The position numbers and the translations under genes were made by a program. 64,000 nucleotides of DNA from Chloropicon primus (lineage: Eukaryota; Chlorophyta; Chloropicophyceae; Chloropicales; Chloropicaceae). The notes below the pieces were generated by a model. That model saw only the letters and a list, made by a program, of their open reading frames with translations. It made no database searches and had not been told where the DNA came from. Location of the stretch: the NCBI GenBank assembly GCA_023205875.1, contig CP060773.1:353211-417210 (forward strand), read 5' to 3'. Of this stretch, positions 4,326 to 46,830 are shown in pieces (within the stretch, counting starts at the first letter, position 1; each line of letters begins with the position of its first letter).

Positions 4326-4360
4326 CAAGCGAGAGCTCAATCGAAAGCTTGCGAGATGCT
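4326..4360 (-). promoter_or_regulatory. Shared upstream motif
   Basis: Plus-strand reading contains AAGCGAGAGCT, then TCGAAAGC and GCGAGATGC. This orientation matches copies found upstream of other minus-strand genes; the nearest is the giant surface-protein gene about 0.7 kb away. Confidence 0.45.
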
Positions 4361-4602
4361 TTTTCCAAAGATTGGTCACTTCATAACACCCGTCCCCGCT
4401 TTCGACTCGTGAGACCGATCGTACTCACCTTGGCCAATACGGTCTCACACTTCCCAGGAGAGCCGTCACGTTCCCCTCAAATGCCGCGCATTTTTGGCGC
4501 GGCTTCCCGATCAGTCGACTCCGGTGGAGGAAGGCGGAACTTGGCGACGGTGTGGAGGCCAGAGGTGTATCTTGTCGAGGGGAAGGACGGGATCACGCGA
4601 AA

Positions 4603-4636
4603 GGGCGTCTCGCGAGCTTTCCAACGGTGGTCGGGT
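4603..4636 (+). promoter_or_regulatory. Shared upstream motif before Hikeshi
   Basis: Plus-strand reading GGCGTCTCGCGAGCTTTCC followed by a GGTGGTCGGG tail. It ends about 57 bases before the Hikeshi ATG at 4693, in the orientation seen before other plus-strand genes. Confidence 0.55.
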
Positions 4637-4692
4637 TCGGCATCCTGGCCGCGGTTTCGGATCGGAAACGTACCATTCTTCGCAAAAGGAGG

Positions 4693-5528
4693 ATGGGACT
4701 CTTCGGCCTCATGTTCGTGGGGAAGTCCTTCCCGATAGGTACGGAAGCTCCGCTCTCTCCTTCGAGCTCCTCACACACACGTACACACTCTCGCTTGCTC
4801 TCGCTCTCGGGCTGTCACGGATGGACGGACGGATGGATGGATGGATTGTTGACGCTGACCCAAACTCAAACGAAAATGCTCTCCTCTTCTCTGCTGTGCT
4901 CTGCTCTGCTGTGCTCTCCTCTGCTCTGCTGTGCTCTCCTCTGCTCTGCTGTGCTCTCCTCTGCTCTGCTGTGCTCTGCTGTGCTCTGCTGGGAAGGACA
5001 GACAGCGGCCAGCTGACGCAGATATCACAAACAAACTGGGTGCTGGACGTGTGCCAGACCGTGAAGCCGAACTACGGGGACCTGAAGGAAGTTTGCCTGT
5101 ACCTTTCCGCTCCCCAGGCGCTTGACCCGAACGCGGCCTTGGGGGTGTACGTGTCGTGCGGTGGGACGGATTGGCAGTACAGGGGGTGCATCTCGAGCGG
5201 GAGGCCTTCGGATGTGTTCCCGACGAACTGGCCAACCGCGGGACAAGACTTGGTGGCGGGCGGAGCGAGGATCGGGATATCCGTGGAGCCGAGGGCGGAG
5301 CTGGAGCAGAAGGAAAGCACGAGACTGGGGAAGAAGGAAGAGTTTGCCAAGAGGGTGGCCCTCGACCTCTTTCGGTTCTTGGAGTCCTTCAATTCCGGCT
5401 GCGTGACCCAGGTCACGTCGGACCAGCTGGTCGTTCCGGCGAACTTCCTTGACCGCTGGTTCACCAAGTTTCAGAGCAAGTTCAGAAGGGATCCTGACTT
5501 CCTAACAAGGGATCGAGACAAAGCGTAG
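4693..5528 (+). CDS. Hikeshi-family Hsp70 nuclear import carrier
   Basis: Two exons, 4693-4738 and 5002-5528, give 190 residues, close to the ~197 of the animal protein. Exon 1 encodes MGLFGLMFVGKSFPI, matching the family's MFGxLVAGR start; exon 2 follows with the beta-sandwich half, including VCLYLSAP, a GVYVSC strand and GARIGISVEP (family IGISVE), and ends with the helical FVIPANFLDRWFTKFQ-type segment (here VVPANFLDRWFTKFQ). The donor GTACGG at 4739 and acceptor CAG at 4999-5001 keep phase 1. In animals Hikeshi carries ATP-loaded Hsp70 through the nuclear pore in heat stress; the same role is inferred. The 263-base intron is odd: most of it is a 20-base tandem repeat. The gene ends 175 bases from the convergent BIVM-like gene. 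Confidence 0.9.
4885..4992 (+). repeat. 20-base tandem repeat inside Hikeshi intron
   Basis: Units built from CTCTGCT, GTGCTCT and CCTCTGCT repeat about five times with a period of roughly 20 bases, immediately upstream of the intron acceptor. It supplies the pyrimidine-rich tract of the intron and is probably a slippage product. Confidence 0.8.
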
Positions 5529-5703
5529 CGGCTTCGAGAGCACACATCATCGCGGGGGTGGATGGATAAATACGCATATTTATTGAGCGGGCGGCCCGCC
5601 ACCACCACTAGGCACCAGGAGAGAGCAGCAGAATCGACCGAGGGGGATGAGTGAAACTCGCTGTGCAACCGTGTACCGTATTGTAAACAAAATTCCATTG
5701 ATT

Positions 5704-7590
5704 TTAGAGAACGGCCATTTCCCCCAAAGTCTCCTCCAGTTCCACGCCGAGGATGGCATGCCCAACCCAGCTCAGTATGGTCTCCCTCACGCTGGTGAAG
5801 TCGATCCACCTGCAAGGCTGCTGGCCTGGCTTTGCCACCAAAATTTGGCGGATGAGGCGCTTCCCAGCGTAACCCTCGTCCGCCTGGTTCTCTCGCGCGG
5901 CGTAGATCATCGAGTAGTGGTTCTGGAGGTGGAAGATGAGCACTTGAGACGGATTCGAGACACAGGACTTGAGGGCGTCCCACTGCTCCGTTACTTTATC
6001 GTCGTCATCCGCCTCGGCGACCTGGCACTGGGACCTTTTGCTTGACATGAACCTCCAAGTCCTCAAGGGGACGCCGTGGTCCTCCCTGATCTTTTCCGTG
6101 ATTTTAACGATCGTCTCGTTGCCTATGGGAGCCGTGCTCGGTTTCTCGGCGTTCAGCTTGGTCAGTCCCCCGAGCTTGGTCCACCAAGTCTTCACCTTTC
6201 CTTCGATGTCCTTCCTGTTTTGGCTGAAAGAATCTTGGACCTCGCTCTTGACCCCGGCCTCGTCCACCTCCCAGGCCTCGAGCGCTACGGGAACCATCTC
6301 AAGCAAAGCGGAGCCCAAGTTTTCCAGCTTGGGGTGAAATTGGACTCCATACTTGCCCGCGAGGGACGCCTCCAACGCATCCAGGAGATCGTCCCCGCTT
6401 TCGTGCTCTGAGATGCCAAGCAGCTCCTTCAAGTCGCGCTTGATGTTTCTTACGGCCTTTTCCCACCGAGATCTGTACATCGCGATGACGTCGCTGCCTT
6501 CCAGGCGAAGGCAAGGGCCTGCAGCGCTTGGATTCTGGTTCTCTTTGCCCACCTCCGCTTTCGATTCCTTGGGGAGCCCCGCCGCCTTGGCACCCCCACC
6601 CGTAACGCCTTGGCACTCTTCGCTCTCGCAGCTCTGCTGCATCTGCTCCATCTGGAGGACCCTCCACCTGCTAGCCAGGATGTTGCACGCCCCAGCCACG
6701 GACGCAGCGGCACAGGAGGGTGACTTTTGCTCCACCCAGCAGCTCAGGAGCTCCGGCCTCGTGTGCACCGCGATGCTTTCCATGGCGGAGACTTGGAGGA
6801 ACTTGTCCCAGAACTTCTGCTGCCCTCCCTCGGGGCAATCCCACCCGCTTGAGTTCACGTGGTGCACAAGGTCCGTTGGAACGAGGGGGTTGCATCGTTT
6901 GAGGGCTTTCTTCTTCTTGTCCAGGTCCTCTTTCGTCGATGCGAGCTTCTTGGTTGCTTTCGAGAGCTCCTTCTCCACTTTGCAGAGCTGGTTGGCCTGG
7001 GCTTCCAAACGAGTGAACTTCTCGGTCGTGATGAGAACGGGTCCGCTGCTTCTGGACGAGGTGATGATGTCCCTCACGTCTTTCTTGTACTCAAAGATTG
7101 GGATCGGAGGGCACGAAGCCTCGCATCTGTTGCCGGCCACCGTTGACGTCAACGCACCGCTGCCCTGTGTTTCCATTCGCTGCAGCTGCCCGATGACCCT
7201 CGCTTGGTTGCTCAAAGTGTCCACGAACCTCCCCCTTGCCTCATCCAACGTTGCCATCAGAGCATCTTCCTGCATCTTCAACTCCAGCCTGACCCTGTTG
7301 AACTGCTCGACCAGGTCTGTCTTTGCGCCGTCGATCTCTCTGGCAATCATGCAGAGCTCCTCCTCACACCTCTCTTTGCAAACGCTCAAGTCAGGAGGCG
7401 AGGAGGAGGAAGAGTTGGACGAATCATCATCCACTTGTTGCCCCCCTCCTGCGCCGCACTTGTTCCCGTTCAGAGCCGAGGCCTTGAGCCTAGCGATGGA
7501 CAGAGGCCTGCTTCCCTCTCTTGAAGCCGTCTTCACCCTCGAGGATGACAGCTTCACGCTCGAGTGCTTGCTGTTCTCACTGAAGTTCAT
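5704..7590 (-). CDS. BIVM-like protein with papain-like Cys/His/Asp motifs
   Basis: One exon of 628 residues from ATG 7590; the frame is open further upstream but has no earlier ATG. Residues 1-110 are Ser-rich and disordered; about 110-260 are charged and predicted coiled coil (ExLCMIAREIDGAKTDL, KLEKELSKATKKL-like). The C-terminal part carries LIFHLQNHYSMIYA and RWIDFTSVRETILSW, which resemble the conserved C-terminus of BIVM-family proteins as I remember it. A SPSCAAASVAGACNIL segment (Cys near residue 293), the His of NHYSM (near 557) and the Asp of WIDF (near 596) fall in the Cys-His-Asp order of papain-fold peptidases, so a peptidase-like domain is an inference. No signal peptide or membrane span. 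Function unknown. Confidence 0.65.
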   Translation of the reverse strand: MNFSENSKHSSVKLSSSRVKTASREGSRPLSIARLKASALNGNKCGAGGGQQVDDDSSNSSSSSPPDLSVCKERCEEELCMIAREIDGAKTDLVEQFNRVRLELKMQEDALMATLDEARGRFVDTLSNQARVIGQLQRMETQGSGALTSTVAGNRCEASCPPIPIFEYKKDVRDIITSSRSSGPVLITTEKFTRLEAQANQLCKVEKELSKATKKLASTKEDLDKKKKALKRCNPLVPTDLVHHVNSSGWDCPEGGQQKFWDKFLQVSAMESIAVHTRPELLSCWVEQKSPSCAAASVAGACNILASRWRVLQMEQMQQSCESEECQGVTGGGAKAAGLPKESKAEVGKENQNPSAAGPCLRLEGSDVIAMYRSRWEKAVRNIKRDLKELLGISEHESGDDLLDALEASLAGKYGVQFHPKLENLGSALLEMVPVALEAWEVDEAGVKSEVQDSFSQNRKDIEGKVKTWWTKLGGLTKLNAEKPSTAPIGNETIVKITEKIREDHGVPLRTWRFMSSKRSQCQVAEADDDDKVTEQWDALKSCVSNPSQVLIFHLQNHYSMIYAARENQADEGYAGKRLIRQILVAKPGQQPCRWIDFTSVRETILSWVGHAILGVELEETLGEMAVL

Positions 7591-8501: not shown

Positions 8502-9093
8502 ACCCTCTCTCTCTCCCTCTCCTCTCTCTCGTCTCTTCCGCCAACAGTACAGACACGACACAACTTCTTCCAGACAACGACCCACGAGCGAAGCGAGGAC
8601 TCTTTCGAAAGCTCGCGACACGCCTCTTCCGCTCCGCTCTCCCTCCTCCTCTCCCTCTCCCTCTCCCTCTCCCTCTCCCTCTCCTCCTCCTCTTCCCTTC
8701 ACCTCGAGCGTTTCGTTCCGCAAGTTGAAGCGTTTCTTTCTTCTTCTCCGTTCGCTTCGCTGCTGCTGCTGCTGCCGCATCACTCAAGGGAAAGAGGAGA
8801 CGAGACGAGACGAGCGGAAGGATTCCGCCATTACATTGTCAGACTCCTTCCGCTTTGCTCTTTGCTCTTTGCTCTTTGCCTCTTCTCTTCTTCTTGTGTC
8901 AAGGCTAGACAAAGCTGTGAAGCTGAAGCTGGAGCTCAAGGGGAAGTCCATTACCTTTTCTTTCCTCGGGTCAAGCGCTTTGGCTGGACAATTGACGCTT
9001 GCTTGCGTTCATCGTGGCACGGGGTCTTCCCTTGGTGGATTCTTTCGCTTGGCTTGGGTTCGGGGTCAACGCTTGACGAGGAGGAGGACGAGG
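8502..9093. other. Divergent intergenic region, small protein / bestrophin
   Basis: CTC-rich low-complexity DNA (about 8640-8695), a CTG run near 8760 and a TTTGCTC repeat (8855-8880). The plus-strand frame is open here but has only repeat-encoded SPSPSP and no plausible start before 9094. One shared motif copy at 8591-8623. Confidence 0.55.
8591..8623 (-). promoter_or_regulatory. Shared upstream motif
   Basis: Plus-strand AAGCGAGGACT, TTCGAAAGC, CGCGACACGC. It begins 90 bases upstream of the minus-strand ATG at 8501. Confidence 0.5.
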
Positions 9094-11752: not shown

Positions 11753-13852
11753 TTACTCTTTCAACTCCTTCCTTTCCTTCATCTCTTCCCTTTCCCTTTC
11801 CCTTTTCCTTTTGGCCAAAGCGGCGCTCCACGTCTCGTGCGTGGCCAAGAACTTGGCGACTTGCTCCTCGGGGAGGTTGCCGTGCCACTCCTTCAGCTCC
11901 TCCTCGAACGTGGACCAATCCTCGTGGTCCACGAAACTGCCCAGGGCGGGAAGCATCTGCTCCACCTCGAAGGCTTGCTGGATCTCCTTGCCCGCAGGCG
12001 TCATCTCCAGCTTGTCGTCCTCGTCCCTGTTCTTGAAGTCCTCTCGCGCGAACGGAAGGAAGTTGAGGTCTTTCAGCACCAAGGTGTGGGCAGGCGCGAA
12101 AGGCAAGGACACATTTGCCGGCGCCGAAAGCACTGCATCCCACGAAACGAAAGCAGCAGCAAAAGCAGAAGGAGATCTGTCAGGCACGACCGTGACCGCG
12201 TTCGCGGCGTTCGACTCGATAGGATTCGTCACTGGTGGTGAACTCACCTGCGGAAATGAAATTCGTCGGGACCATGTTCCTATACGCTGCAATCATGAGG
12301 CCGACCATGTGCCTGATTTGGTGGTACATGAACGATTCTCCCTGAATCGTAACCCTCAGCGCGAGCCTCTTCTCGCCGTCGCTTTTCCCCAAATTGGTCA
12401 GGCGCGCGCCGCAGCTCACCTCATGCATGTGCCTGTAGTGCGACCTGTCCAGCTTGGTCTTCCTGTTGAAAGTGTGAAACCACCTCACGTTGTCGCAGAA
12501 CTTCTCGACTTCGACTTCCCTCTCGGCCGAGTCGCCGCCCTCCTTCCCCACCGTGGATGGCTCCTCTCCCCGCTCCTCCCGCTCCGCTCCTCCCTCCGCC
12601 GCAGCCCCTCCCCCCTCCGCCGATCTGTCCCGCTTCACCTTGTCATGCTTCTCGTACAGCCTCTTCTTGAGCTTGTCCCTGTGCTTCTTCGTGTACAGCC
12701 GTCGCTCCGTGAAGTTGTGGTAAGGCTTGAACCCACAAAACAGAGGCAGAACGTTCGAGTTGAAGTCGGTCAAGGACTTCTCCACTTCCGCCGGGGAGAC
12801 GCACTCGCCGTTCTCATCGATGGCTATGCCAAGCACAGGGGCTGGAATGTAAAACTGGTACGTTCTCTTGTTGCAGAAGGCCCTCGGAGCAAAGCCCTTT
12901 GTCACCGGCGTGACGGAGAATACGCGCAACTTCCGGGGCAACTCATCGTTGACCTTTTCTACCAACTCCTTCCCGCACTTCCCATCAATCCAGTAGTTGT
13001 AAGGGCACTCCAGCTTGAGTGTCATGACATTCGCCAGGGCATGGACGCCCTTGTCCGTCCTGCTCGCCCTGTTCACCCTCACTTTCTTCTGATCAGGAAA
13101 GTTTGTCGGCAACACTCCACCCATGTCATGAAGGCCTTTGAACAGAACATACTCCAGTGTTTGTCCTTGGGCCGTGTCCTCATTGATCATGCTCCCCTGC
13201 ACAACACACACACACAATTCCAATCCAAACACAAAAGTCAACTCCGTGAGTCAGCAGGATGACCAAGCAAAGGCAATGCAGCTTGGGTTTGCATCACGTT
13301 GATGTTGATGTTGATGTTGATGTTGATGCTGTTGTTGGAAAGAGGAGAGTTCGGAACGAGGCAGGCAGGGAACGGGGATGGCATCCATTGCTCCGGATGA
13401 TACTACCCGTCGATGCCTCATCTCTTCCTCTTTCGTTTGACACCTCGATGGAAAGAAATGGTGGTCAAGTGATGCGAGTGAATGGGGATTGGGGAATGAC
13501 TTACGAGGTATCCTGTGCCGACGTAGCCGTAAAAGAATGCGACGTTCCTCTTCCTCGGCCTGTTCTCCCACTCCCTTGTCCCTTCCTTCATCGCCTTCTT
13601 CGCTCCTCCTCCGTTGGACCTCAACACCTTTGCATCATCAACAGCATCAGCATCAGCATCAGCAACACTTTTGGCCATCCTGTTCCTGTTCTCCTCGTCG
13701 TTGCTGGCGTTGGTCATCCCAAACCCTCGCCAAGCTCGGTCAGGCGTTACGTTATTGTAACGGTCGGAGGGGTGGCGAGGCGTGTGGTGGCTGCGAGGGC
13801 GGCGAGGTCCAAGTCCCAGGCGATGGAGGCGGAGTCTCATCACCTGCTGCAT
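11753..13852 (-). CDS. tRNA pseudouridine synthase, TruA/PUS1 family
   Basis: Three exons: 13852-13505, 13196-12248 and 12132-11753, with GTAAGT and GTGAGT donors and phases that agree (558 residues; 513 if the second ATG at 13717 is used, which looks more natural). Exon 1 ends with KRNVAFFYGYVGTGYL, the first strand of the fold; exon 2 opens with QGQTLEYVLFKGL and has the catalytic loop NRASRTDKGVHA with the nucleophilic Asp, then HQIRHMVGLMIAAYRNM; exon 3 adds LSAPANVSLPFAPAHTLVL. This is the eukaryotic PUS1-like architecture; it makes pseudouridine in tRNAs (positions near 27-28) and other RNAs, in nucleus or mitochondrion. An acidic, Glu/Ala-rich insertion (EGGGAAAEGGAEREERGE) interrupts the domain, and the C-terminus is highly charged. 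Confidence 0.9.
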
Positions 13853-13880
13853 CGAATCCTGCCTTATCTCTCTCTATCTC

Positions 13881-14240
13881 TGTGTGCTCATGGGAATGCT
13901 GAGAGAGAGAGAGGGAGAGAAGAGAGGGATGATGATGATGATGGTGATGGTGATGGAGGTGATGAGAAGGAGAGAAGGGCATTGTCCTCCTCCTCTCTCT
14001 CTGTCTGTCTGTCTGTCTTTCTCTCTCTCTCTGTGTGCTCATGGGAATGCTGAGAGAGAGAGAGGGAGAGAAGAGAGGGATGATGATGATGATGGTGATG
14101 GTGATGAGAAGGAGAGAAGGGCATTGTCCTCCTCCTCTCTCTCTCTCTCTCTCTGCCTGCCTGTCTCTCTCTCTGTCTGCTCATGGGGAATGCTGAGAGA
14201 GAGGGAGAGGGAGTGGAGCGAGTGAGTGAGTGATGATGAT
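13881..14240. repeat. ~150-base tandem duplication with microsatellites
   Basis: A unit starting TGTGTGCTCATGGGAATGCT, followed by GAGA, GATGATGGTGATGG and CTCTCTGTCTG tracts, occurs at about 13881 and 14032, with a shortened third copy from about 14178. It fills the gap between the FKBP stop and the PUS1 start; no gene is seen here. Confidence 0.85.
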
Positions 14241-14446: not shown

Positions 14447-14489
<43 letters not shown>

Positions 14490-15306: not shown

Positions 15307-18300
15307 TTACCTGGAGCTTGTCCGAGGACGGTGCGACCCGTGCTTGTCCCTGCTCGGCGCACTGTGCTTCTCCCTGTTCGCCGGATCGAGGTACTTCTCC
15401 GGGTGAGAGAACTTGCAGGCAGCTCCGAACTTGCACACGCCATTCCTGGCAAAGTGGCCGCATTCGGGCTGGTTGGGCCTCAACGGGTAGCCGATGCTGT
15501 TCCTTCCGACCTTGTACTCGGGCGGGTGGTCGAACCTGCAAGTTTTGCAGTACCTGCACCAACCGGATTTCACAAAATATTCACACACGGGTTCTCCTGG
15601 CCTCCTTGGGTACTCCTCGTCTTCCTTGACGAGCTCCGCCGCGCTGCCCGCATCGTTGTACAGGTCGAGGGGACGAGTCTCCTCCATGCAGAAGGGCACC
15701 ATGTCGCCCGGGGTGACATCGTCTGGAAAGTACCTCTGAAGCAGGGGGTCGGACCTGAGATTCTTGCAAGCAAAACTGTACAACGCCATGAACAACTTGG
15801 GGAAGGTGGTCGCAAAGTACGTGTACACGCCGTTGGGCACCGGGCCCAAGATCTCCTTCACCTCGTCGCTGTTGTCCCTGTAGTGCCCCACCTTGTTCCT
15901 GATCATTCGCATCAGGTCTCTCAAACTGTACACAGAGTAATTCCGGAACTGCTTCGATTCCTCCCACAGGATCTTGTCGATCTGCTTGTGCCAAGGTCTT
16001 CTGTTGAGCACCTCGTTCCCGTAATTCTCCAGAGACCTCAACAGAGCAGGATTCGTCACCGTGTCCTCCTTCTCCATGCGGTGGCTCAAGTTCACGATGA
16101 AGTTCACCCTCCTCTCAAAATCCCACCAAAAGGGGTGAGCCATGACCGCCTTCATCTTCGGCCTTTCTCGGGGATTCTTCGTGATCATGGCGTACACAAG
16201 GTTGTTGGCTTCGTACCAGCTGATGTAGGCGATCCTAAGCAGGGTATCCGCCGTCCTGGGCCTGGAGGAGACGGGGTGCACCTTCTCCCTCGACTTTCGC
16301 CTCCAAGTGGGGACATAGACCTCCGGCTTGCGTTCCTTGCCATCAGCCTCAGCTTGGCACGTATCCCCCTGCCCCTTCTCCCCGGCGGCTTCATCGTTTG
16401 CGCCCTCTCCGGCGTCCCCTTCCTTCCTGTCGCCAGGTCCATCTCCCGCCGCGTCAGAGTCGCCGTCCTTGCTCTCTTCGCTCCCCAGCTCCTTCGGCCC
16501 TTCCGCCGCCTTGGCCCGCCTCCACTTGTCCGCCTCCCTGCCGTCGTCCCCCCCCAAATACATCCTCAGCATACTCATCGGCTTCAGGTCGAACTTTGCG
16601 TTGAGGATGTTGTGGTCCCTCTGAACAATGTGGTCTCCGAAAGGATGGTGCCTCGTCAAGGTGTAAAAGATGATGCATCCGAAAGAGAAGACGTCCACGG
16701 CCTTGGTGTGCCGAATGCCGCTCGTGCTGCATTCCGCAGAATCGTTGGAATCGCCACCCTTGCTGGTGCTGCTGTTCATGCCCCCAGACTCCTCTTCTGG
16801 GACGGGCTTCAGAGACCCGGGCCGATCCTGCAAATTCGCGAGAGACGACTGCCTCTGGAGCTGCTGCTGCTTCTGCAGGAGCACCTCTGGCGCCTGCCAG
16901 CCCGACGATCCCATCCCCGTCCCATCAAAGGAGCTCTGCTCCGCTTGAAGCTGCTTGCTCAGGCCCATGTCGGACACCTTTGCCTTGTTTGCGCTCGTGA
17001 GCAGCACGTTCTGTGGTTTGAGGTCCCTGTGCACGATTCCCATGTCGTGCAAAGCCCTTATGGCCTTCCCGATGTCCGAGATCATTTCGAGCAGCACCGG
17101 CGGAACGACGATGCGGACCACATCAAAGTCCTGGCACACGATGCCTCTGTTCCGGGCAACGTCCTGTCGGCTCGTCATCCGCAAAGGCACGACCCCGGAG
17201 ACCATTTTCTTGAACTTTTGCGAGTTGACAAACTCGTGAAGAGTCCCTTGGCACCTTTCAAGAGCTAGGTAGATGAATTCCTCGTCCTGTTCCATCGCGA
17301 AACAACGCAAAACACTTGGGTGGGCATCCGAAACGATCAGGGCCTTGATCTCCTTCTCTGCCATGTGGAAGAACTCCCTGAGCAAGCGCTTGACAGCGAC
17401 TTCCCTGTGATTCAGAGATCCCTCAAAGACGATCGTGCCTGCGCTGCCGTAACCCAGAATTTTGGGCGAAACAATCAAGTTCCCAATCATCACCTCCTCG
17501 TTGGCAATCTTCTTCCGGTTGCTCAGTGGACTTTGCATCTCTGTTTTCTCCATCTTCTCGATCTTCTCCATCTCCTCCCGCAGCCGTTTCTGGGTGTTCT
17601 CGATGTTCGAGTAATACTCGTACAGGTAGCCACCAAAGGTGAACAGGACTGCGATCAGCAACGTCATGAGTGCCATGTAAAACGTTGTCCACTTGCTGCC
17701 CTCAGGATCCTTCCTGGCAAGAGCGTTCGCGTCCAGTTCGTTTCCCTTCTTTTCGCCTTCCTTCTTCGCTTTTTTGTTTGTGAAAAAGGCAGGCAAGCTC
17801 TCCATGGTCTGCACGTCCTTCGACCCATCCTCAAGGGGAAACGTCATGAGCGACTTTCCCCCTCCCCTCACGTCCATAACGCTGGATAGCCGAGATCCTA
17901 TCTCTCTTGGAACCGCCAAGGCATTGCTCCCCCTTCCCCCGTCAGGTTCCTTGCCAGGGCCAAGCCTCAAGTCATTCTTCAGGTTTGGCATGATGAATAT
18001 CCCACCGGTATGAATTCCAACGAGAATGTTCCCCTCCTCTCCACGAGACTCGTCCGACCACAGCTTGATGTTGTGCACGTGGCCCGAGATGGAGTCCGAC
18101 AAAGAAGCAGACACCGGCGTGGAATCAAGCTGCTCCGACCACAACTGCGCCATGTTCTCACGAGTGTTGGCGACTCGAATTGTGTTGTCGATGGTCGTGA
18201 AAACCCTCAGAGTTTCCGCAAGCTTGGAAAATTGCTTCATGTGGGGCCCGTTGAGAAGCTTGTCGCCAGAGAGATCTCTGTCCGGCTTGAAAGGGTCTTC

Positions 18301-19278
18301 CCCGCCCAACATCGCGAGGCCTTCTGAAGCAGAAAGTTGTTTGCAATCTGTGTACGAAACGTTCCAGAGCTCTTCATTGTGTTTGTGATTGAAGGCTTTG
18401 ATCACGTACTCTGTCCTGCTCAGCAGCACGGGCTGCAATTTATCCATCACGTCTTCACCCGCTGAGACCCCCTTCCCCTCCACGCCTTTCACTTTGGGCA
18501 ACGCCAAGCCGCCGTCGGTATGGACGTCTTCCCTTCCCCCCCTCTTCCTGTTGACCAGGCCCAAGTTTTGCGTGGACTGCTGTCCGCTTCCCACGCCACC
18601 CACAGAGTCTTCCAGCACTATCTTGGCAAAGTGTTTGTCGAATATCTCGCTCACTTTTGCTGGCGACTGCAGATCGTCTGAAGTGATCTTCGACAAGACT
18701 TCCCCCGTGAGTGGGTGAATCACGAAAACCGTGTCCCTCTTCGACCCCAAAACGATACTGCCGTCCCCCGCGATGTTCGGGCTCACCTGGACAACGTCCG
18801 ACGCCTTCACCCCAAGCTTCTGTATCGCCTGACTGCCGAGCCTTATCGAGTACAACTGCCCGTCCACCCCTGGAACAATTGCTGCCTTGGGGGACAAGTC
18901 CGAGCTCCTTTGCGGCGTGATCGATGTCCTCACCAGCGCTCCTTCCGTCTCCGACTCCCACAGCTTCTCCCCACTCAAGGCGTCAAACGCATGAACCCTC
19001 CCGTCCACCGTCTCCACCAAGACAGACACCTGCATCGGCAAGGCAGACTCATCGCTCTCTTCCCCGGCACTCCCTCCCCTCCTCGCTCGACCTGCACCTT
19101 TCTGTCGCGTTTGACTCGTCGTCGTCGGAACGTTTGACACCAAAGCGGCTTGTCTGAAAGGCGTCGAGGCGTGGGCAACCAAGTGCGAGTGCGAGGCCAA
19201 GCAAACCGCCAGAATCCCCACAAGAGCGAACGCAAGCTGACGGAAACGCAGCCGTCCCCGTCGATGCTCCTTGATCAT
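15307..19278 (-). CDS. IRE1: IRE1 kinase/endoribonuclease fused to two CCCH zinc fingers
   Basis: Single exon, 1323 residues from ATG 19278. A signal anchor (about 13-33) is followed by a lumenal PQQ-like propeller domain (VETVDGRVHAFDALSGEKLW), a membrane span near 530-553, then the kinase: ILGYGSAGTIVFEG (about 606), VAVKRLL, IVHRDLKPQNVLL (about 749), SDMGLSKQL (DMG in place of DFG) and GWQAPEVL. A long acidic insertion sits at about 906-1006. The KEN RNase domain spans about 1050-1186 with RNKVGHYRD, keeping the Arg, Asn and His of the catalytic site. Unusually, two C-x8-C-x5-C-x3-H fingers follow (CEYFVKSGWCRYCKTCRFDH, about 1228; CGHFARNGVCKFGAACKFSH, about 1268). IRE1 senses unfolded proteins in the ER and cuts its target mRNA; the fingers suggest added RNA binding. 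Confidence 0.95.
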   Translation of the reverse strand: MIKEHRRGRLRFRQLAFALVGILAVCLASHSHLVAHASTPFRQAALVSNVPTTTSQTRQKGAGRARRGGSAGEESDESALPMQVSVLVETVDGRVHAFDALSGEKLWESETEGALVRTSITPQRSSDLSPKAAIVPGVDGQLYSIRLGSQAIQKLGVKASDVVQVSPNIAGDGSIVLGSKRDTVFVIHPLTGEVLSKITSDDLQSPAKVSEIFDKHFAKIVLEDSVGGVGSGQQSTQNLGLVNRKRGGREDVHTDGGLALPKVKGVEGKGVSAGEDVMDKLQPVLLSRTEYVIKAFNHKHNEELWNVSYTDCKQLSASEGLAMLGGEDPFKPDRDLSGDKLLNGPHMKQFSKLAETLRVFTTIDNTIRVANTRENMAQLWSEQLDSTPVSASLSDSISGHVHNIKLWSDESRGEEGNILVGIHTGGIFIMPNLKNDLRLGPGKEPDGGRGSNALAVPREIGSRLSSVMDVRGGGKSLMTFPLEDGSKDVQTMESLPAFFTNKKAKKEGEKKGNELDANALARKDPEGSKWTTFYMALMTLLIAVLFTFGGYLYEYYSNIENTQKRLREEMEKIEKMEKTEMQSPLSNRKKIANEEVMIGNLIVSPKILGYGSAGTIVFEGSLNHREVAVKRLLREFFHMAEKEIKALIVSDAHPSVLRCFAMEQDEEFIYLALERCQGTLHEFVNSQKFKKMVSGVVPLRMTSRQDVARNRGIVCQDFDVVRIVVPPVLLEMISDIGKAIRALHDMGIVHRDLKPQNVLLTSANKAKVSDMGLSKQLQAEQSSFDGTGMGSSGWQAPEVLLQKQQQLQRQSSLANLQDRPGSLKPVPEEESGGMNSSTSKGGDSNDSAECSTSGIRHTKAVDVFSFGCIIFYTLTRHHPFGDHIVQRDHNILNAKFDLKPMSMLRMYLGGDDGREADKWRRAKAAEGPKELGSEESKDGDSDAAGDGPGDRKEGDAGEGANDEAAGEKGQGDTCQAEADGKERKPEVYVPTWRRKSREKVHPVSSRPRTADTLLRIAYISWYEANNLVYAMITKNPRERPKMKAVMAHPFWWDFERRVNFIVNLSHRMEKEDTVTNPALLRSLENYGNEVLNRRPWHKQIDKILWEESKQFRNYSVYSLRDLMRMIRNKVGHYRDNSDEVKEILGPVPNGVYTYFATTFPKLFMALYSFACKNLRSDPLLQRYFPDDVTPGDMVPFCMEETRPLDLYNDAGSAAELVKEDEEYPRRPGEPVCEYFVKSGWCRYCKTCRFDHPPEYKVGRNSIGYPLRPNQPECGHFARNGVCKFGAACKFSHPEKYLDPANREKHSAPSRDKHGSHRPRTSSR

Positions 19279-19875
19279 GGTCCTCCTGCACTCCGCCACC
19301 TTGAACCTTTTCGGGTGCTCCTTCGAGGCTCTCTTCGTCGCTGTCTTCTCACACCTCCATCATGCTGACCATCCCGACGCCTCGAGCACCTCGCCGTCCC
19401 TGGCCTCTCGCCGTCACGGCTTCCGCCAAAGTATGAACGAAGCGTTGCTCTCAGTGCGTCCTGTCGAGTCACCCCCTGTTTCGGGTCCTCAAATCTTCCT
19501 CAGACCGCTTCCAGTTTCAAGCGAGAGCTCTTTCGAAAGAAGAAGAGATGGTGCTTCCTCCTCGCTCTCTTCCTTTCTCCCTCTCGACCTCCCCCGCCCC
19601 CCACTGCCTCACAAGCGTCCGCCTTTCTCTCTCCCTCTCGGCTGGGCTCGATCGGTTTGTCCCGTTCAGCCTCGCCGGCGATCGCTGCTCTCGGAGATCA
19701 AAGGCTTGGGAGATCAGAGCTTGGAGGGGGAGGAGTTGCAGGGCGAGGTGAGGGTGATCACAAGGAGGGAAGGGGCATCAAGTGACGTGCGCACCAAGAT
19801 CATCTCACGATCTTTCGCTGGAGTCCGCAGTCGATCAAAATGACCCACGGGTGAGGGAGCTGGTGGAATGGAGGA

Positions 19876-21001: not shown

Positions 21002-21417
21002 CTTGAACCGTCCTCCACAGCAGAGTGTCCTCTGGTTCTAGCAGGTGTTGGACCAAAGCTCGTGTCACTTCACAGGTGTCACGCAATCCTCGCGATGGGA
21101 TGCACCGCCTGCTGGATCCCTTGCCTCCCTCTTGCGCCTGTTGAACCGGAACACCCCTCCACTCCACCCTCTGGCTGCCCCCTCCAAGCACCACTTGGTG
21201 AGAGGAGCTCGGTCTATGTTAGACTAAACTGTGCCAAATCCTTCACAGGACGCCATTCGTTTCGATGAAAGGCTCTTTGGGAAGCCAATGAGACGATCTT
21301 GACATCTTTAAACTCCCTCACCTCGTCCCTCTTCGTTCTCGTGGTCCATACCTCGCTCAAACTCACCTCGCTGGTCTGATGGTGCACTGATCCCCTGGAC
21401 AAGATCTGCAAAGCAGA

Positions 21418-23884: not shown

Positions 23885-24213
23885 CACCGCCCCCTCGCAC
23901 GATGTGAAGAACCGTTTCACGCCCTCACGCCCTCCCTCCGTCCTCCCTTGCGCCAAGCGAGGGCTGGATGGAAAGCTCTCGAGACGCTCTTCAAGCCTCT
24001 CTCCCTCCCTTCTTCCCTCTCTCTTCGCCCCTCCCCTTCGAACGAACGCAAACGCTTCTCCTAAAACCCCATCACGGACTCCCGCCAAAAAAACTGTAAC
24101 GCTCGTAACGCTCAATCACGGCTCTCGAGACGAAAACGGCGGGAGAGAGTGAGAGAGTGAGGCCTGACTTGAGGTTTGACAATCGCGGCGGTCGAGGATA
24201 TTGCACGACGAGG
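23885..24213. other. Bidirectional promoter region
   Basis: 329 bases between two divergent membrane-protein genes; contains one clear shared motif copy (23952-23989). No gene seen. Confidence 0.6.
23952..23989 (-). promoter_or_regulatory. Shared upstream motif
   Basis: Plus-strand GCCAAGCGAGGGCT, GATGGAAAGC, TCTCGAGACGCTC, one of the best matches; 68 bases upstream of the minus-strand ATG at 23884. Confidence 0.6.
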
Positions 24214-26231: not shown

Positions 26232-26269
26232 GTCAAGCGACGGCTTTTTCGAAAGATATCAAGGTCTAG
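26232..26269 (-). promoter_or_regulatory. Shared upstream motif
   Basis: Plus-strand GTCAAGCGACGGCT, TTTCGAAAGA, TCAAGGTCTAG; 46 bases upstream of the ATG at 26186. Confidence 0.5.
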
Positions 26270-26387
26270 TTTCACTGAGTATCGAAGATGATCTCCCCTT
26301 CGCCCGAAAATCGGTATCAAATCTCCATCCTATCGCGACCACCCCGAGGACGATGGCGATGATGTTGTTCCCTCCAAAACGTTTTAC

Positions 26388-30711: not shown

Positions 30712-30915
30712 TCGATCCGTCCTATCTCGTAAACCAAGACTCGACCTGGCGTGATCCCCAGAAGTGTGACCTGAAGAATCCTTGACCAATCCCTACGACC
30801 TCTTGCGACCCTCGATTCGCCCTCCACTGCGTCGCAAAGTCACGCCACTCCTGCTCCTGGCTGCTCCCCAACGCCTTGATGGCCAAAGTTGGCGACCACT
30901 CCGGTTGCCAAACGA

Positions 30916-30950
30916 GTCGAGTGAGGGCTCGTTCGAAAGATAAAGAGATT
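30916..30950 (-). promoter_or_regulatory. Shared upstream motif before Mog1
   Basis: Plus-strand GTCGAGTGAGGGCT, GTTCGAAAGA, TAAAGAGATT; about 205 bases upstream of the ATG at 30711. Confidence 0.5.
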
Positions 30951-31230
30951 TTCTACCGCGATGTGTTCTCTCCTTTCCCTCTTACGCTCTCGTTCTTGCC
31001 ATCTCTCTCGTTCTTTCCGCTCCTCGGTCGATCTTTGCTCCCCTCGGACGCGCGGAAAAACTGTTTTCCTATGGCCATGTATAATTAATGTCGTATAGAG
31101 AATAAGCCGCGGAGCTCCTCCAACGGATTTCTCTAGAGGAAGGAAAAGGTAAGTTGACCAAGATTGAGAAGAGGAGAGAGACTTTGGAGGAAGATTAAGA
31201 ACGCTTAGGGTGGAGTGAGTGCTGTGACAA

Positions 31231-31515
31231 GCGTGAAAGATGATTCCTCGCTTCACAAGCTTTCTTTCAAGCCCTTCCTTGTGCCCTGGGTCTCCGTAAT
31301 AGACGAGAAACTCACGTATTGACCAAGCTGAGGCACAAGTTCAAAGCCCAAGCTTAGAGACTATGAGCACCGAAGGGGGGGGGGAGAGGGAGGCTGTGCG
31401 TCGTGTCAAGGGTGCAAGATGGTTCCTCGTGTCTTTCTCTATCGAAAGAGCATTCGTTCGTCCTTCCTTCCGCCTTGGTTGTCCGGTATGGACGAGAAAC
31501 TCACGTATTGACTGA
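31231..31515 (+). repeat. Duplicated upstream segment before membrane-protein gene
   Basis: Two diverged copies about 190 bases apart share GATTCCTCG/GGTTCCTCG, CTTTC, TCGTCC-like pyrimidine tracts and GACGAGAAACTCACGTATTG. Each includes a degenerate form of the shared upstream motif in the plus-gene orientation. Confidence 0.6.
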
Positions 31516-33094: not shown

Positions 33095-33434
33095 CTGGTG
33101 CTGGTGCTGGATGAAACACATCGTCGAAAAGATGGAGGCCAATGCCAATCCAATAGATGCCTCCCTCCCCTCCCTCCATTCATCCCTCCATTCATCCCTC
33201 CTCCCCTTCTCCTTCTCCTTTCCTCCCCTTCTCCTGTTTCTCTCTGTTCCCCAAAAAGAAACTCCAGGGAGAGCATTTCGGGAGTGGGGAAGGGGAACAA
33301 ACGAGAGGGATTTCGACGGAGACAAAGCGTCAGGAGGGCGAGGGAGGCAACGTCATCAAACGCTTCACCTCTTCATCTTTCCAACGAGCCGCTCCACTCC
33401 TCCGTCGCTTCCATAACGAAGCGGCGGTGTCCTC
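32865..33434. other. Intergenic between two plus-strand membrane-protein genes
   Basis: Simple repeats (CT, TGTG, CTGGTG at 33061-33108; CATTCATCC at 33176-33200). Shared motif in plus-gene orientation at 33363-33398. No gene supported. Confidence 0.5.
33363..33398 (+). promoter_or_regulatory. Shared upstream motif
   Basis: Plus-strand CTTCACCTCTTCATCTTTCC then ACGAGCCGCTCC; ends about 37 bases before the ATG at 33435. Confidence 0.45.
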
Positions 33435-34993: not shown

Positions 34994-35139
34994 CTCGAAT
35001 GAATGGGAATCCTCCAAGAACCTCCGTGCCCCTTCACTTGTCCTCGCTGTGCTCCCCTCCCTTGGCAAACTCTTCCCGGTCCTCGCCCTCCCAACCTGCA
35101 CTTCTGTCTTCCCCAGCCTTTCCTGGCTCCGCTCCAAAG

Positions 35140-35181
35140 GCGTCAAGTGATGGTACCGATGGAAACAGATCGTGAGACGCG
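35140..35181 (-). promoter_or_regulatory. Shared upstream motif
   Basis: Plus-strand GCGTCAAGTGATGG, CGATGGAAACAGATC, GTGAGACGC. The outer GCGTC and GACGC are complementary, so the element could fold back on itself. Confidence 0.55.
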
Positions 35182-35300
35182 CTTTCCTTCACCCCTCCAC
35201 TCGCTGTGCTCCTCTACCACAGACCTTGGCCCTCCCTCTCCTCCCACAAAAGGCACACAGAGGCCAGACAGCTTTTATCAACCACCACGGGCGCCAAATG

Positions 35301-35339
35301 CGTCAAGTGAGAGCTTCACGGAAAGACCTTGAGCTCTAG
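35301..35339 (-). promoter_or_regulatory. Shared upstream motif
   Basis: Plus-strand CGTCAAGTGAGAGCT, CACGGAAAGACC, TTGAGCTCTAG; second copy upstream of the COMM-domain gene. Confidence 0.5.
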
Positions 35340-35914
35340 TTTTGTGTGATGCCAATGACTTGTCCACACTTGATCCCGTCCTCCCCGCCGATACCGCGCC
35401 TTCGTCCGACCCTTTGCCCAATCCTGTATCCTGTCCTTGGGATCCATGCACTTACGAATTTCAGCCTCATTTCTGGAGGATTAGGAGCCTCCAGTTTTCA
35501 GGATAAGGCAGAGAAGAGACGGTGAGTGATGTGCAAAAACAGGTGCGAAGACGAGAAGGGGTGAGGTCTTGAGGTGCACCAATCGATGCCTTACCCTCTC
35601 ATCTTTCCATAGATACCTTCCTCGCTCGGAATGGCGGAGGGATGAGGATGGGAGAGACTAATGAGGTTTCATTTTTTGTCTGTTTTGGAAGCCTGGGAGG
35701 CAGGGAGGTTGGTAAGCGAAGAGTGGCGAGGAGGGGGCTGCGGTGCGGAAGGGACCCCGCGGGATTGAAGCATCGTGACATTATCTTTCGTTCGACGCCT
35801 CACTCGAAGGGGATGGCGAAGTTTTTGAGGATTCATCATCCTGACTCCTGACTTGTTTTTGCCTGTGTCCTGTGTGTGTGTTGTCGCAGGCTGTGACTCG
35901 GTGCTGGGGCTGAG

Positions 35915-40122: not shown

Positions 40123-40202
40123 AATTAGGAAAGGGGTGGGGTTAGCATCGGCATGAACCTCGCGACCGTGTCGACGGTCCCGGGCGAATGAAAAGGTAAG
40201 AG

Positions 40203-40230
40203 TGGGGTCCTTCGAAAGAGGAAGACATGA
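40203..40230 (-). promoter_or_regulatory. Shared upstream motif (partial) before RPSA
   Basis: Plus-strand GGGTCCTTCGAAAGAGG then AAGACATG; about 170 bases upstream of the RPSA ATG, same orientation as at other minus-strand genes. Confidence 0.45.
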
Positions 40231-40574
40231 AGGTTTCGAATTCATCGACTCTCATCATCTTATACTTCATCTACGACACGAATATCGTCAAACAAAACGT
40301 ACCTCTCTCCGTGTTTCGTCGACTGCGCGCACAAAACTTCTTTGGCTTTCGTCGTTTCCGCCGCCGAATTTTTGGCGGCCGTAATTACACTAAAACCAAC
40401 CCATTTGACACTATTTGAATTTTGAAATATGAATTTTGAAGTTTCATGAAATGAAAAAGGGGCGTCGATCCTATGGACAATCTCCTGAATCGGGGGCACT
40501 GCATGGTGTGTTTGTCTGTCCCTAGGGGTTGAAGTGTGTGAGGTTGAGGTTTCAGGAGGTCTAAACCAGCGATA

Positions 40575-40616
40575 GGGCGTCTCACGATCTTTCCAAAGAG
40601 CCCAGCCTTGCTTGGG
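40575..40616 (+). promoter_or_regulatory. Shared upstream motif before SEC23
   Basis: Plus-strand GGGCGTCTCACGATCTTTCC, AAAGAGCCCAGCC, TTGCTTGGG: close to the full consensus in the plus-gene orientation. Confidence 0.6.
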
Positions 40617-41166
40617 TCTTGTCTTGGGTTCTCTCTCTGTGTCCAGATACAGACCCTCAGACCTGGCGTGTGTTTGTGTGGGAGGTGCAACGGAGGCAGA
40701 GGAGGGGAGGAGGGGGAGGAAGGGGCCGAGGGGAGAGCCGAGTCAACCGAGAGGCCTCGTCTCTTTCCCTTTTCGATTGGTGCTGGCATTGCTCGGGTCT
40801 TGGGGACTCGTTCTTCCCGGTGAACTTCACTTCTGGGAGAAGTCTTGAAGCGAGGTGAGTCCACTGGAGGACGAGGAGTACGAGGACGAGAGAAAGGGAA
40901 AGGTCTTCGTTGGATGCTTTGCTCCCGGCCTCCTCTTTCAATTGATTCCCTCACTCCAAGGAAAGGAAGTGACTGACTCTGGTTCCGGTGAAGGGCCTTG
41001 GGAGTGGCCAGTGCCTGAGGCCTGAGGAAGACTTCGTGGACCAGGACGACGGGGAAGGGGCAGACGGGCACGCAGGGAGACGAGCAAGCACGCGCGCGCG
41101 CACACAGAGGGAGGCGTGCAGTTTTTTTTTTTGTGAATTTCGGTTCAAGCGCACAAGCAACACATC

Positions 41167-44404: not shown

Positions 44405-44497
44405 GACGATGGATAGGATGCTATCAACAGGCAGGAGACACAAGTTCGTTCAGTGAGTTTCTCGCTCGTCGAATCCTCGTCACTCGGTCGTTTCTCT

Positions 44498-44534
44498 CGA
44501 GCGAGGGGTCGACGGAAAGATCGCGACGAGACGC
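44498..44534 (-). promoter_or_regulatory. Shared upstream motif before Nudix gene
   Basis: Plus-strand CGAGCGAGGGGTCGACGG, AAAGATCGCGACGAGACGC; 94 bases upstream of ATG 44404. Confidence 0.6.
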
Positions 44535-44680
44535 TTCTATCGTCCCTCCCCTCGTCCCTCCCCTCGTCGCGAAGGATCCGCAACTCGACCGTCTCTTCAA
44601 GACTTGAGACCAAAAAAACCACCTCACGCACAAGGGACAAGACAAGAACGAGCTCAAAGCCTCCACAGAGGGTCGTTCCT

Positions 44681-44719
44681 GTCGAGCGAGGGGTCGACGG
44701 AAAGATCTCGAGAAGACGG
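44681..44719 (-). promoter_or_regulatory. Shared upstream motif, second copy
   Basis: Plus-strand GTCGAGCGAGGGGTCGACGG, AAAGATCTCGAGAAGACGG; nearly identical to the copy 185 bases to the left. Confidence 0.55.
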
Positions 44720-45265
44720 TTCGATCATTTCGGTTCCCTCGCGCTTTCCCTCGTCCCCCTCGTCGCCTTCCCCTCGCGTTTCCTCACCTCTCTCTCTCTC
44801 GTCCTGGCGCGATGACGTCTGCTGGCCACTCGATTCGAAAATCCATTAAAATCGAGATTTTGAGATCTTGTCTACTAAGGAGTGTAAAGATCAAGAAGGG
44901 ATGTGGATCCACATCAACCTTTCCTCTCTTCTCCTCTCGGGGTTCACTGCAACTGGCATCCATCATGGATGCATGCATGGCTTCTCCTTCTCCTTCTCTT
45001 CTCTTCTCTCTTGCTTTCTCTTCTCTCTTGCTTTCTGTCCGCTTGTGTGGCCTCTGTCTGTCTGTCTGTCTGTAGCTCTCTCTCTCTCTCTCTCTCTCTC
45101 TGTTTGTCTGTCATCGAGGCACAGGTAGAGGAGGAGGGCCATCGATGCCTTCCTCTCTCTCCCTCCTTGCTGCTGCTGCTGTTGTTGTTGTTGTCGCAAG
45201 AAAGTAACCAAGTAAGTCTATGACACGATGATGATGACGATTGATTATTTTGTCTTCCTTGTGGT

Positions 45266-45777
45266 TCAGCACTTCCATATTAGTACACCAGTCTCCCCTG
45301 CTACAAACACGTACAAGATGTTCTTGGTCTCGTGCGAGACCTCGAAGGCGAACCCCTTGCCGGCCACGCAGTGCCACGGAGAACCAAACTTCTTGTCCAT
45401 GCTCTCCTTGATGAACTAGTGAGTCAGTGGAGCAGCAAAGTGAGTCAGTCAGTCAGTCAGTGAGACACAGAGACCAAGCCAAGCCAAGTCAAGCTCGGGT
45501 GGGTCAGCCGAGGTTCTTAGCGTCGTCGTGAGGACGAAGGGAGAGGTGTGTGTTGTGTGTGTGTGGGGGGGGAGGAAGAACACCAGGTGGTGATGATGAT
45601 TTGGTTTTGTGTTGAACTTACGTGTGTGCACTTTTGGAGGTCCTTTGGGAACTTCTCCACCGCGTTCATGCAGATGTCCACCGCTTCATCCCTGACCTCA
45701 GCCATCATATCCGTGTGCTTGACAAGCGAGTAGTTCGCCATCTTCAAAAAGGCCTCCCTCTCCTCCGGTATTTGCAT
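45266..45777 (-). CDS. Dynein light chain, LC8 type
   Basis: Exons 45777-45622 and 45415-45266 (GTAAGT donor, CACTAG acceptor, phase 0) give 101 residues. MMAEVRDEAVDICMNAVEKF aligns with the first LC8 helix, and exon 2 encodes FIKESMDKKFGSPWHCVAGK, then FAFEVSHETKNILYVFVAGE and TGVLIWKC, matching LC8's [22 protein letters not shown]...THETKHFIYFYLG.VAILLFK. The N-terminus is ~12 residues longer than LC8, and a leader exon ending at a GTAAG donor near 45948 would join in frame (LELANR then ELFAKMQ), so the true start could be further upstream although no ATG is seen there. LC8 is a dimeric hub in cytoplasmic and axonemal dyneins and many other complexes. The sequence is divergent, closer to axonemal relatives than to canonical LC8. 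Confidence 0.82.
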
Positions 45778-46830
45778 TTTGGCAAACAATTCTCTTCACA
45801 GACTCTGACATGAATTGCGACCAAACCACACCACACGAAACAGTGTCAGGCGTTATCAAACACACAAAACACAAACCAAAGGCTTCTCTGTCTGTCTCTG
45901 TCTCTCTGTCTCTCTGTCTCTCTGTCTCTCTCTGTGCCTTACCTCTGTTGGCCAGTTCTAGTCTTCCAATAAAGGACACAGTGGTCCACTCGATGAATGC
46001 TTTGCTCCTTTTAGCCTACCGCCTCCTCCCTCTTGGTCTCCCTCAAGCCAAGCCAAGCCAAGCCAAGCCAAGACCTCTGCCTCTGCCTGTGCTTCTCTCT
46101 CTCTCTCTCTGTTTGTTGCTGGCGAGTCCAACCCAACCAATGAATGACACAATTATATCAATCCAATGGGAAGGGAAGCGTTGGTCCTAAAGCCAAAGCC
46201 AAAGCCAATAATGGTCTCCTCCTCCTCCTCCCTCTCTCTCTCTCTCCTGCCTCTTCCTGTCTCCTCTCCTCTCTTCAACCCTCTGCTTCACCCTCTCCTT
46301 CACCTCCATTGGTCAAAGTTCCCATTATCTTAATCAAAGCCAAGATAGCATGAGATTATATTATAGTGTACACCGTACACTCAAAGATCCGATCTTGGAA
46401 AACCAATTTCCCCAATCCTCCAACGAAGGGAGACGAGGCAGGAGAGAGAGAGGAAGGTGAGTTCGGGAAGGTGTGGGCGGCGAGGACGGAAGGAGAGGTG
46501 TCCGATGACGGTTTAAGGCGATTCCTCGTCTCTTTCTCTTTCGTTAGACACCTCACTCGAAACATTTGGTGACCTAGTGATGGTTTAAGACACTGAAACG
46601 TTTGCATTGTTTCTCTCCTCACGGTGGGTCGTGGTAGTGCAAGGGGAAGGAGGGGAGAGGAACGACAGGGGAGGGTTTGGATCATCGGAGAGGGAGAGGT
46701 GGGCGCATCCACACATCGACACCATCCTTTTCCCGAACGGACGGTGCTCGAGAAGGGTTTCGGTTCTCGTGTGTTGGGGGAGACGCACCGGACACGAGTT
46801 TGGTTTTGGTGCTGATTGATTGATTGATTA
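45778..46830. other. Divergent intergenic region, LC8 / NEK10-like kinase
   Basis: CTCTGT microsatellites (45890-45940), a CCAAG repeat (46045-46070) and CTCC-rich DNA. A possible leader exon of the LC8 gene ends near 45948. A shared-motif variant (46511-46556) faces the kinase gene. GATT repeats precede its ATG. Confidence 0.5.
46511..46556 (+). promoter_or_regulatory. Shared upstream motif variant before NEK10-like gene
   Basis: Plus-strand GATTCCTCGTCTCTTTCTC, TTTCG, TTAGACACCTCACTCGAAAC. It is a weaker match: the reverse strand reads GAGTGAGGTGTC then CGAAAGAGAAAGAGACG. Confidence 0.35.

Follow-up and report, generated by a model that had tools for sequence, protein, structure and literature searches.

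A candidate ~70-bp gene-start element in the green alga Chloropicon primus, repeated at close to nucleosome-length spacing

What kind of signal is the motif that recurs, on both strands, ahead of gene after gene at the right end of Chloropicon primus chromosome 20? The stretch in which it was noticed (hereafter, the window) comprises 64,000 nucleotides of contig CP060773.1 (C20:353211-417210, where C stands for contig) and runs to the final base of contig 20 of strain RCC138, whose genome is listed with 20 chromosomes and a GC content of 57.44% (PMC12301720, Table 1). The genome sequence totals 17,584,162 bases in contigs of 417,210 (the shortest, contig 20) to 1,855,637 bases (the longest), and 8,693 genes (~8,700) are reported for strain CCMP1205; Chloropicon roscoffensis is listed at 77.9% average nucleotide identity. 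The original prediction, made from the letters of the window alone, held that a motif of ~40 bases sits upstream of most genes in fixed orientation, mostly 40 to 270 bp before the ATG, and proposed a core promoter or 5'-leader element. The analysis described here points to a so far undescribed kind of gene-start signal, whose layout may fit chromatin: rather probably, as far as DNA sequence can tell, a long strand-specific promoter element located at the transcription start or within a few tens of bases of it.

How large is the element, and how common is it? A weight matrix built up from exact matches converged on 70 columns with ~39 bits of information, which makes the element ~70 bp long instead of the ~40 bases first proposed. 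One unit consists of an ~85-bp G-rich tract followed by the ~70-bp motif, approximately GAARCRTYGTCTC TTGMTCTTTCGAAAGAG CCCTCGCTYGAA AGRAWTGGCGCYCNGGTGAGGAT. Within its palindromic core, TCTTTCGAAAGA, CTTTC is nearly invariant and the right arm of the palindrome varies without compensation. The matrix was applied to a 264-kb scan set made up of the window and 20 stretches of 10 kb, one per chromosome, with microsatellites masked; these 200 kb are a systematic sample (100001-110000 of each chromosome), not a random one. At a threshold of 15 bits we obtained 74 matches, with the reservation that the matrix was partly trained on sequence in which the copies were then counted, and none in the reversed sequence, where the top score was 9.8. 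Removal of antisense overlaps of the palindromic core left 71 copies in the 264 kb, 27 of them in the window, and 79 when other loci are included. In the tract 5' of these 79 copies (-110 to -27), the mean G content is 0.46 and the mean C content 0.14, and G exceeds C in 78. TATAWA occurs inside the 70 bp in none of the 79.

The shared upstream motif is real: 16 of the 17 copies originally noted were recovered in place by the matrix, and the remaining one (35140) carries a small insertion and was found through the left half of the noted motif, with 3 mismatches, at 35163-35180. Taken alone, that left half (up to 3 mismatches) has 8 matches in the window versus 0.36 expected, while the right half has 19 versus 14.5 expected, which is not significant; because the right half alone is no better than chance, the motif must be treated as a whole block. 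Insertion-bearing copies such as 35140 are missed by the ungapped matrix, as is one in locus L002, where a pattern match is present without a matrix match. The genome-wide enrichment proposed as a check was found: the 23-mer TCTTTCSNWMGANCNNTCNNTYG has 384 exact matches (reversed control, 0), and 996 when one mismatch is allowed (reversed control, 4). Dividing 996 by 25/71, the fraction of matrix matches that the 23-mer reaches, gives an estimate, with a wide error, of ~2,800 copies for ~8,700 genes. The element thus does not lie upstream of most genes when the whole genome is considered. Pattern scans of viral contigs and prokaryote genomes returned no matches, which says little about an algal element.

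Where do the copies lie with respect to genes? Gene models were open reading frame segments scored by codon use, without introns, and no copy among the 79 falls within a predicted coding segment. Downstream of 60 copies the next predicted gene runs in the same direction, and downstream of 13 in the opposite one; for the other 6, the stretch contains none. Among the intergenic regions of the window and 16 of the stretches, copies are present in 18 of the 22 divergent regions, in 12 of the 38 co-directional ones, and in 1 of the 29 convergent ones (divergent versus convergent, P = 4e-9), and in all seven divergent regions that hold both orientations the minus-strand copies lie to the left of the plus-strand copies. 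The genes behind the copies are unrelated to one another and include a tRNA synthetase, kinases, Sec23/24, and NUDIX genes.

How close are the copies to start codons? Distances were measured for 42 copies that are proximal and co-directional, have a coding segment no more than 900 bp away, and offer a usable start. From the motif's anchor, the ATG is 59 to 131 bp away in 17 of these cases and at most 300 bp away in 28. Where the distance from motif to ATG is long, it is unreliable, because intron-free models miss first exons. Locus L022 is an example: the small nucleolar RNA (snoRNA) snoU36a (6606-6698) seems to be intronic in an RRM gene, whose flanking exons begin near 6244 and 6814, and the copy before this gene is, as read by eye, ~118 bp from the likely ATG. 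The distance of 40 to 270 bp given in the original prediction holds for part of the copies only, since a usable start codon no further than 300 bp from the anchor is available for 9 copies in the window (at 70 to 294 bp). Between copy and start, the 28 genes contain 19 ATG triplets versus 33.1 in dinucleotide shuffles, and the control triplets GTA, TAG, and GAT are not depleted there. Under a fairer null, in which the choice of start codon is repeated on the shuffled leaders, 10 upstream ATGs (uATGs) were counted in the 24 genes whose coding start is no more than 300 bp away, versus 25.2 (standard deviation [sd], 4.5), with none of 300 shuffles as low; per length this is 4.5 versus 8.5 uATGs per kb, the null leaders being longer (2,952 versus 2,220 bases). 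The depletion between element and start codon suggests that transcription probably starts at or near the element, so that a transcribed leader would probably begin at the copy or somewhat upstream of it.

A further property concerns the distance between neighboring copies. In the window and the sampled loci, same-strand pairs up to 400 bp apart are spaced by 132, 172, 174, 176, 179 (three pairs), 182 (four pairs), 183, 185, 188, 196, 330, and 353 bp, and 13 head-out pairs, with the copies facing outward, are spaced by 242 to 369 bp; head-in pairs are absent at this range. A relaxed core pattern applied to the whole genome gave 17 same-strand pairs at 71 to 131 bp, 327 at 131 to 191 bp, and 77 at 191 to 251 bp (controls, 6, 4, and 3), a few of these matches being a single pair read on both strands. 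Of the 100 listed among the 327, 94 remain when pairs re-read on the other strand are subtracted; 85 of these fall at 171 to 191 bp and 71 at 177 to 188 bp, with a mode of 182 bp. The doubled spacing, 331 to 391 bp, is found in 24 pairs (control, 1), and the off-lattice spacing, 251 to 311 bp, in 14 matches (control, 0); on inspection by eye, ~10 of these 14 resemble palindromic cross-hits of head-out pairs. For head-out pairs, two gap classes gave 106 and 95 (controls, 1 and 1), and the gaps peak at 250 to 274 bp (54 of the 98 listed among these 201 pairs), with ~262 bp being typical. The head-in pattern, which is one base per side more stringent than its head-out counterpart, matched 4 pairs, at least 3 of which are by eye palindromic cross-hits of head-out pairs.

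How did the tandem copies arise? In 15 tandem pairs, the identity between partners is 0.69, versus 0.49 for copies of different pairs, and only 4 have a spacer whose likeness to the upstream flank exceeds the 95th percentile of unrelated pairs. Duplication thus seems to be the source of tandem copies; the spacer would then change in sequence and keep a length near 182 bp. This is our main argument that the length of the spacing is under selection, and we infer the nucleosome as the reason for it. Separately, a dispersed repeat was seen at C1:1798104, C4:1352353, C5:250754, C9:467927, and C13:82028, alike over much of the 80 bases compared, which carries a head-out pair of elements with CACAAAGTCC or a variant nearby; it is perhaps the promoter of a multicopy gene family.

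Taken as a promoter element, the motif could work as follows. A sequence-specific complex, either TFIID-like or a multi-finger factor that recruits a TFIID-like complex, would bind the ~70 bp, a length close to that covered by an initiation complex. Transcription would begin near the TCRCTYG block, which is rich in pyrimidines, and the resulting leader would measure ~40 to 110 nucleotides. For a fair proportion of genes, one or two additional copies at a distance of one nucleosome repeat (~182 bp) would each lie in a successive linker and offer an alternative start, and head-out pairs ~262 bp apart would serve as bidirectional promoters. New copies would be made by tandem duplication, with selection retaining those spacings that fit the chromatin lattice. 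The original prediction is thereby supported in part: a core-promoter or 5'-leader element fits the enrichment, the intergenic placement at gene starts, the polarity, the clustering of start codons 59 to 131 bp downstream, and the uATG depletion. The motif may be the core promoter itself or a factor site beside it.

Several observations weigh against this promoter model. In co-directional regions, 9 copies point with the genes and 11 against them; the proposed fixed orientation is seen in that neighboring copies face outward. Several of the 11 face gaps of 1 to 3 kb, possibly holding genes missed by the predictor, and four (50616, 50748, 53031, and 53203) are recent duplicates aimed at the 3' ends of genes. 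Four of the 22 divergent regions mentioned above have no copy, and neither do the four light-harvesting loci examined, L029 to L032, two of which overlap; a light-harvesting protein of this genome is of the chlorophyll a/b type. One of these loci, L030, lacks a copy though its contig is copy-rich; highly expressed genes may use another type of promoter. The uATG depletion is not visible in the 11 genes with a coding start within 160 bp (4 versus 4.8) and weaker at up to 600 bp (37 genes; 49 versus 63.5; P = 0.023). A mild depletion of ATGs is also seen immediately 5' of the copy, at -130 to -27 (14 versus 20.4), and some transcripts may therefore start further upstream; the interval from -300 to -130 shows none (47 versus 44.6). 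At L022, three ATGs lie between the copy and the likely start, and a 5' intron would have to be assumed to remove them. Finally, no base-composition wave of ~182 bp was found inside genes.

Could the same features belong to something other than a promoter element? The motif might be the site of an abundant architectural factor, comparable to the general regulatory factors of yeast or to CTCF, which clears and phases nucleosomes beside promoters, with separate start signals nearby. Its length and ~39 bits would suit a multi-finger protein, the tandem spacing is of nucleosome length, and a G-rich tract adjoins 78 of the 79 copies; however, the polarity, the coupling to start codons, and the depletion of uATGs downstream exceed what such a site needs, and we regard this explanation as unlikely. 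It is also conceivable that the copies are remains of a mobile element about one nucleosome long, similar to introners or to miniature inverted-repeat transposable elements, which settled in promoter linkers and decayed except for a useful core. Consistent with this, the unit measures ~180 bp, tandem partners are more alike than copies of different pairs, the distribution over the genome is uneven, some copies lie within the dispersed repeat, and insertion of introners in nucleosome linkers is reported (PMC9860276). Yet an origin of this kind accords poorly with spacers that mostly do not resemble the upstream flank and with the absence of copies from predicted coding sequence, and no splice site is conserved: within the 70 bp, GTRAGT occurs in none of the 79 copies and GTGAG in 14. 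The copies are too diverged for the ends of an element to be placed. We consider the mobile-element origin quite improbable, and identity with introners as such was rejected on the coding-segment and splice-site counts.

The palindromic core and its position shortly before the ATG would also suit a 5'-leader RNA element acting on translation or stability. However, pairing cells amount to 57.2% versus 56.6% in shuffled sequence, covariation is lacking in the palindromic core, the part compared, extra copies lie one and two repeat lengths upstream, and the window contains no Rfam match at gathering scores. These results make an RNA element very improbable; a hairpin was rejected given the lack of compensatory changes, and the 5'-leader part of the original prediction, understood as a folded RNA, is disfavored with it. 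A promoter of small RNAs was likewise rejected: besides the absence of Rfam matches from the window, only two (a transfer RNA [tRNA] and a snoRNA) were obtained in 14 of 22 ten-kb stretches. ARAGORN, run with the bacterial code, reported no tRNA in the window or the 22 stretches, and missed at least one tRNA found by Rfam. As for a coding repeat, a low-complexity artifact, or chance, a favorable sign is that 42 of 61 copies keep frame 0 open (null, 35.7; sd, 3.1); but the other frames also exceed the null (29 versus 25.5 and 22 versus 13.9), the spacing is not restricted to multiples of 3, and the reversed controls gave 0. Frame, spacing, and reversed-sequence controls together refute these explanations, to which we give next to no weight.

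The copies are not spread evenly over the genome. Clustering was assessed on contigs 1 to 7, which account for 94 of the first 100 exact 23-mer matches in contig order (384 in all), and range tests against a uniform spread gave P = 2e-5 for contig 1 and P = 0.018, <1e-5, 0.21, 0.003, 0.0004, and 0.002 for contigs 2 to 7. On contig 1 (1.86 Mb), all 15 exact matches among those listed lie beyond 1.06 Mb, and the first 1.06 Mb of this chromosome holds none of any pattern among the matches listed, where weak copies are possible. On contig 3 (1.50 Mb), 14 listed exact matches fall within 245 to 679 kb, with other copies at 1.25 and 1.31 Mb; its right arm is sparse, not empty. Two loci chosen as predicted-empty, L033 and L034, and the sampled stretches L009 to L011 contain no copy (top score, 6.9) though genes are present, and none of their 20 intergenic regions carries one. 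As this grouping is partly post hoc (L009 to L011 were assigned for being empty, and only L033 and L034 were chosen beforehand), P values for the contrast between stretches with and without copies are not to be trusted; the grouping omits L018, which has no predicted gene, and L007, which overlaps. L018 itself (C10:100001-110000) is 10 kb with a GC content of 53.4%, an observed/expected CpG ratio of 0.53, and no gene by codon score, and contains near-identical stretches of tens of bases ~2 kb apart; it is perhaps a giant repetitive gene.

It is tempting to combine both patterns into one joint reading, in which a promoter code is written in chromatin register (~70-bp start-site elements one or two nucleosome repeats apart on each strand, ~262 bp apart when head-out, with alternative starts in successive linkers) and two promoter systems occupy separate domains, with at least one large segment, the first 1.06 Mb of chromosome 1, seeming to lack the element. 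As a whole, this would be a tentative construction that we find doubtful, and its two-domain component is held less likely because the arm of contig 3 is sparse instead of empty.

Within the window, the copies accompany ordinary genes, with Pfam matches to bestrophin, EXPERA, pseudouridine synthase, IRE1-like kinase/RNase, cyclic-nucleotide channel, leucyl-tRNA synthetase, Ribosomal_S2, Sec23/24, NUDIX, kinase, GDPD, and Sec15. Unless stated otherwise, the following copies are weight-matrix matches. At the left, a minus-strand copy at 4296-4365 (58.4 bits) has a head-out partner on the plus strand at 4599-4668 (21.0 bits), and single copies follow at 8560-8629 (minus; 40.8 bits) and 13412-13481 (plus; 46.0 bits). 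The IRE1-like kinase/RNase gene (15307-19278, minus) is preceded by a copy at 19488-19557 (minus; 53.9 bits), whose head-out partner lies at 19794-19863 (plus; 44.3 bits). Further on, a copy at 21233-21302 (minus; 44.3 bits) is located upstream of a gene with an STI1/HOP domain, and another at 23924-23993 (minus; 46.1 bits) has its anchor 92 bp before the ATG at 23884. A triple array on the minus strand comprises a proximal member at 26204-26273 (38.2 bits), a middle one at 26383-26452 (47.0 bits), 179 bp away, and a distal one at 26557-26626 (52.3 bits), 174 bp beyond.

Upstream of a Mog1-family gene lies the copy at 30888-30957 (minus; 54.1 bits), followed on the plus strand by a tandem pair at 31242-31311 (22.2 bits) and 31421-31490 (27.4 bits), 179 bp apart, and by a copy at 33359-33428 (23.9 bits). 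The insertion-bearing copy noted as 35140 is below the matrix cutoff and occupies approximately 35117-35186 (minus), its ends being set around the pattern match mentioned above. The next one, 35274-35343 (minus; 39.0 bits), is the head-out partner of 35585-35654 (plus; 46.2 bits), which is followed after 182 bp by 35767-35836 (plus; 50.9 bits), with its anchor 131 bp before the leucyl-tRNA synthetase ATG at 35915. A Ribosomal_S2-family gene and a Sec23/Sec24-family gene have upstream copies at 40167-40236 (minus; 25.0 bits) and 40571-40640 (plus; 32.9 bits), respectively. The anchor of 44468-44537 (minus; 57.3 bits) is 116 bp before the NUDIX gene ATG at 44404, and 44653-44722 (minus; 63.0 bits) lies 185 bp upstream of that copy; a protein kinase gene (46831-50409) is preceded by 46520-46589 (plus; 58.9 bits). 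The last four copies, all on the minus strand, belong to recent tandem duplications: 50616-50685, aimed at the 3' end of a plus-strand gene, and 50748-50817 (weight matrix and repeat search) to one of 132 bp, and 53031-53100 and 53203-53272 to one of 172 bp. The 132-bp duplication spans 50594-50857 and is 98% identical. The original list was short by 11 of these copies (those beginning at 13412, 19794, 21233, 26383, 26557, 35585, 35767, 50616, 50748, 53031, and 53203), and the ~182-bp phasing, the G-rich tract, and the uneven distribution were not mentioned there.

Three other features of the window were observed. At 13860-14218, units of ~145 to 150 bp are repeated three times around GGGAATGCTGAGAGAG. 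At the chromosome end, 63339-64000, an array with 14-bp spacing lies beside the telomere region or forms part of it. The IRE1-like gene has two CCCH zinc-finger matches after its RNase domain, to our knowledge an unusual addition.

What would such an element mean? If true, the ~182-bp repetition would be a natural case of chromatin spacing written into promoter DNA, the element may be of use as a promoter native to a small oceanic alga, and the apparently copy-free segment raises the question of one genome running two promoter types. Little is known of core promoters in most lineages of eukaryotes, among them the prasinophyte algae, and at ~70 bp and ~39 bits the element is far longer than the initiators and downstream elements known to us. 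The term “promoter” is not used in the main texts of two Chloropicon genome papers, according to a term search (PMC6731263 and PMC12301720). Among the matches listed from the openly licensed literature, including papers containing CTTTCGAAAG, none was on such an element, which is weak evidence of absence.

How, then, does it compare with known systems? Sites of yeast general regulatory factors are also promoter sites that could organize nucleosomes; they are much shorter, and are not known to be repeated at nucleosome spacing. The core promoter elements of oomycetes, a different lineage, go by the names Inr/FPR and have a far shorter consensus, and no ~180-bp tandem copies are known among them. 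Like the Chloropicon element, those of oomycetes are non-TATA, and they too were identified by motif analysis of upstream regions across the genome, in a protist lineage that has been little studied (PMC3599244). Introners, studied in Micromonas and Aureococcus, share with it the character of a short repeated picoalgal element tied to nucleosome linkers (PMC9860276). In contrast to the intergenic Chloropicon copies, which have no conserved splice sites, introners are spliced introns inside genes. The vertebrate CGCG element, TCTCGCGAGA (PMC6192621), bound by BANP (PMC10206803), belongs to TATA-less bidirectional housekeeping promoters, and the Chloropicon sub-block GTCTCRMGA looks similar to it. 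Identity was rejected, since exact TCTCGCGAGA occurs in 0 of the 79 copies and TCTCGCGA in 4; the vertebrate element measures 10 bp, the Chloropicon element ~70 bp, with a direction.

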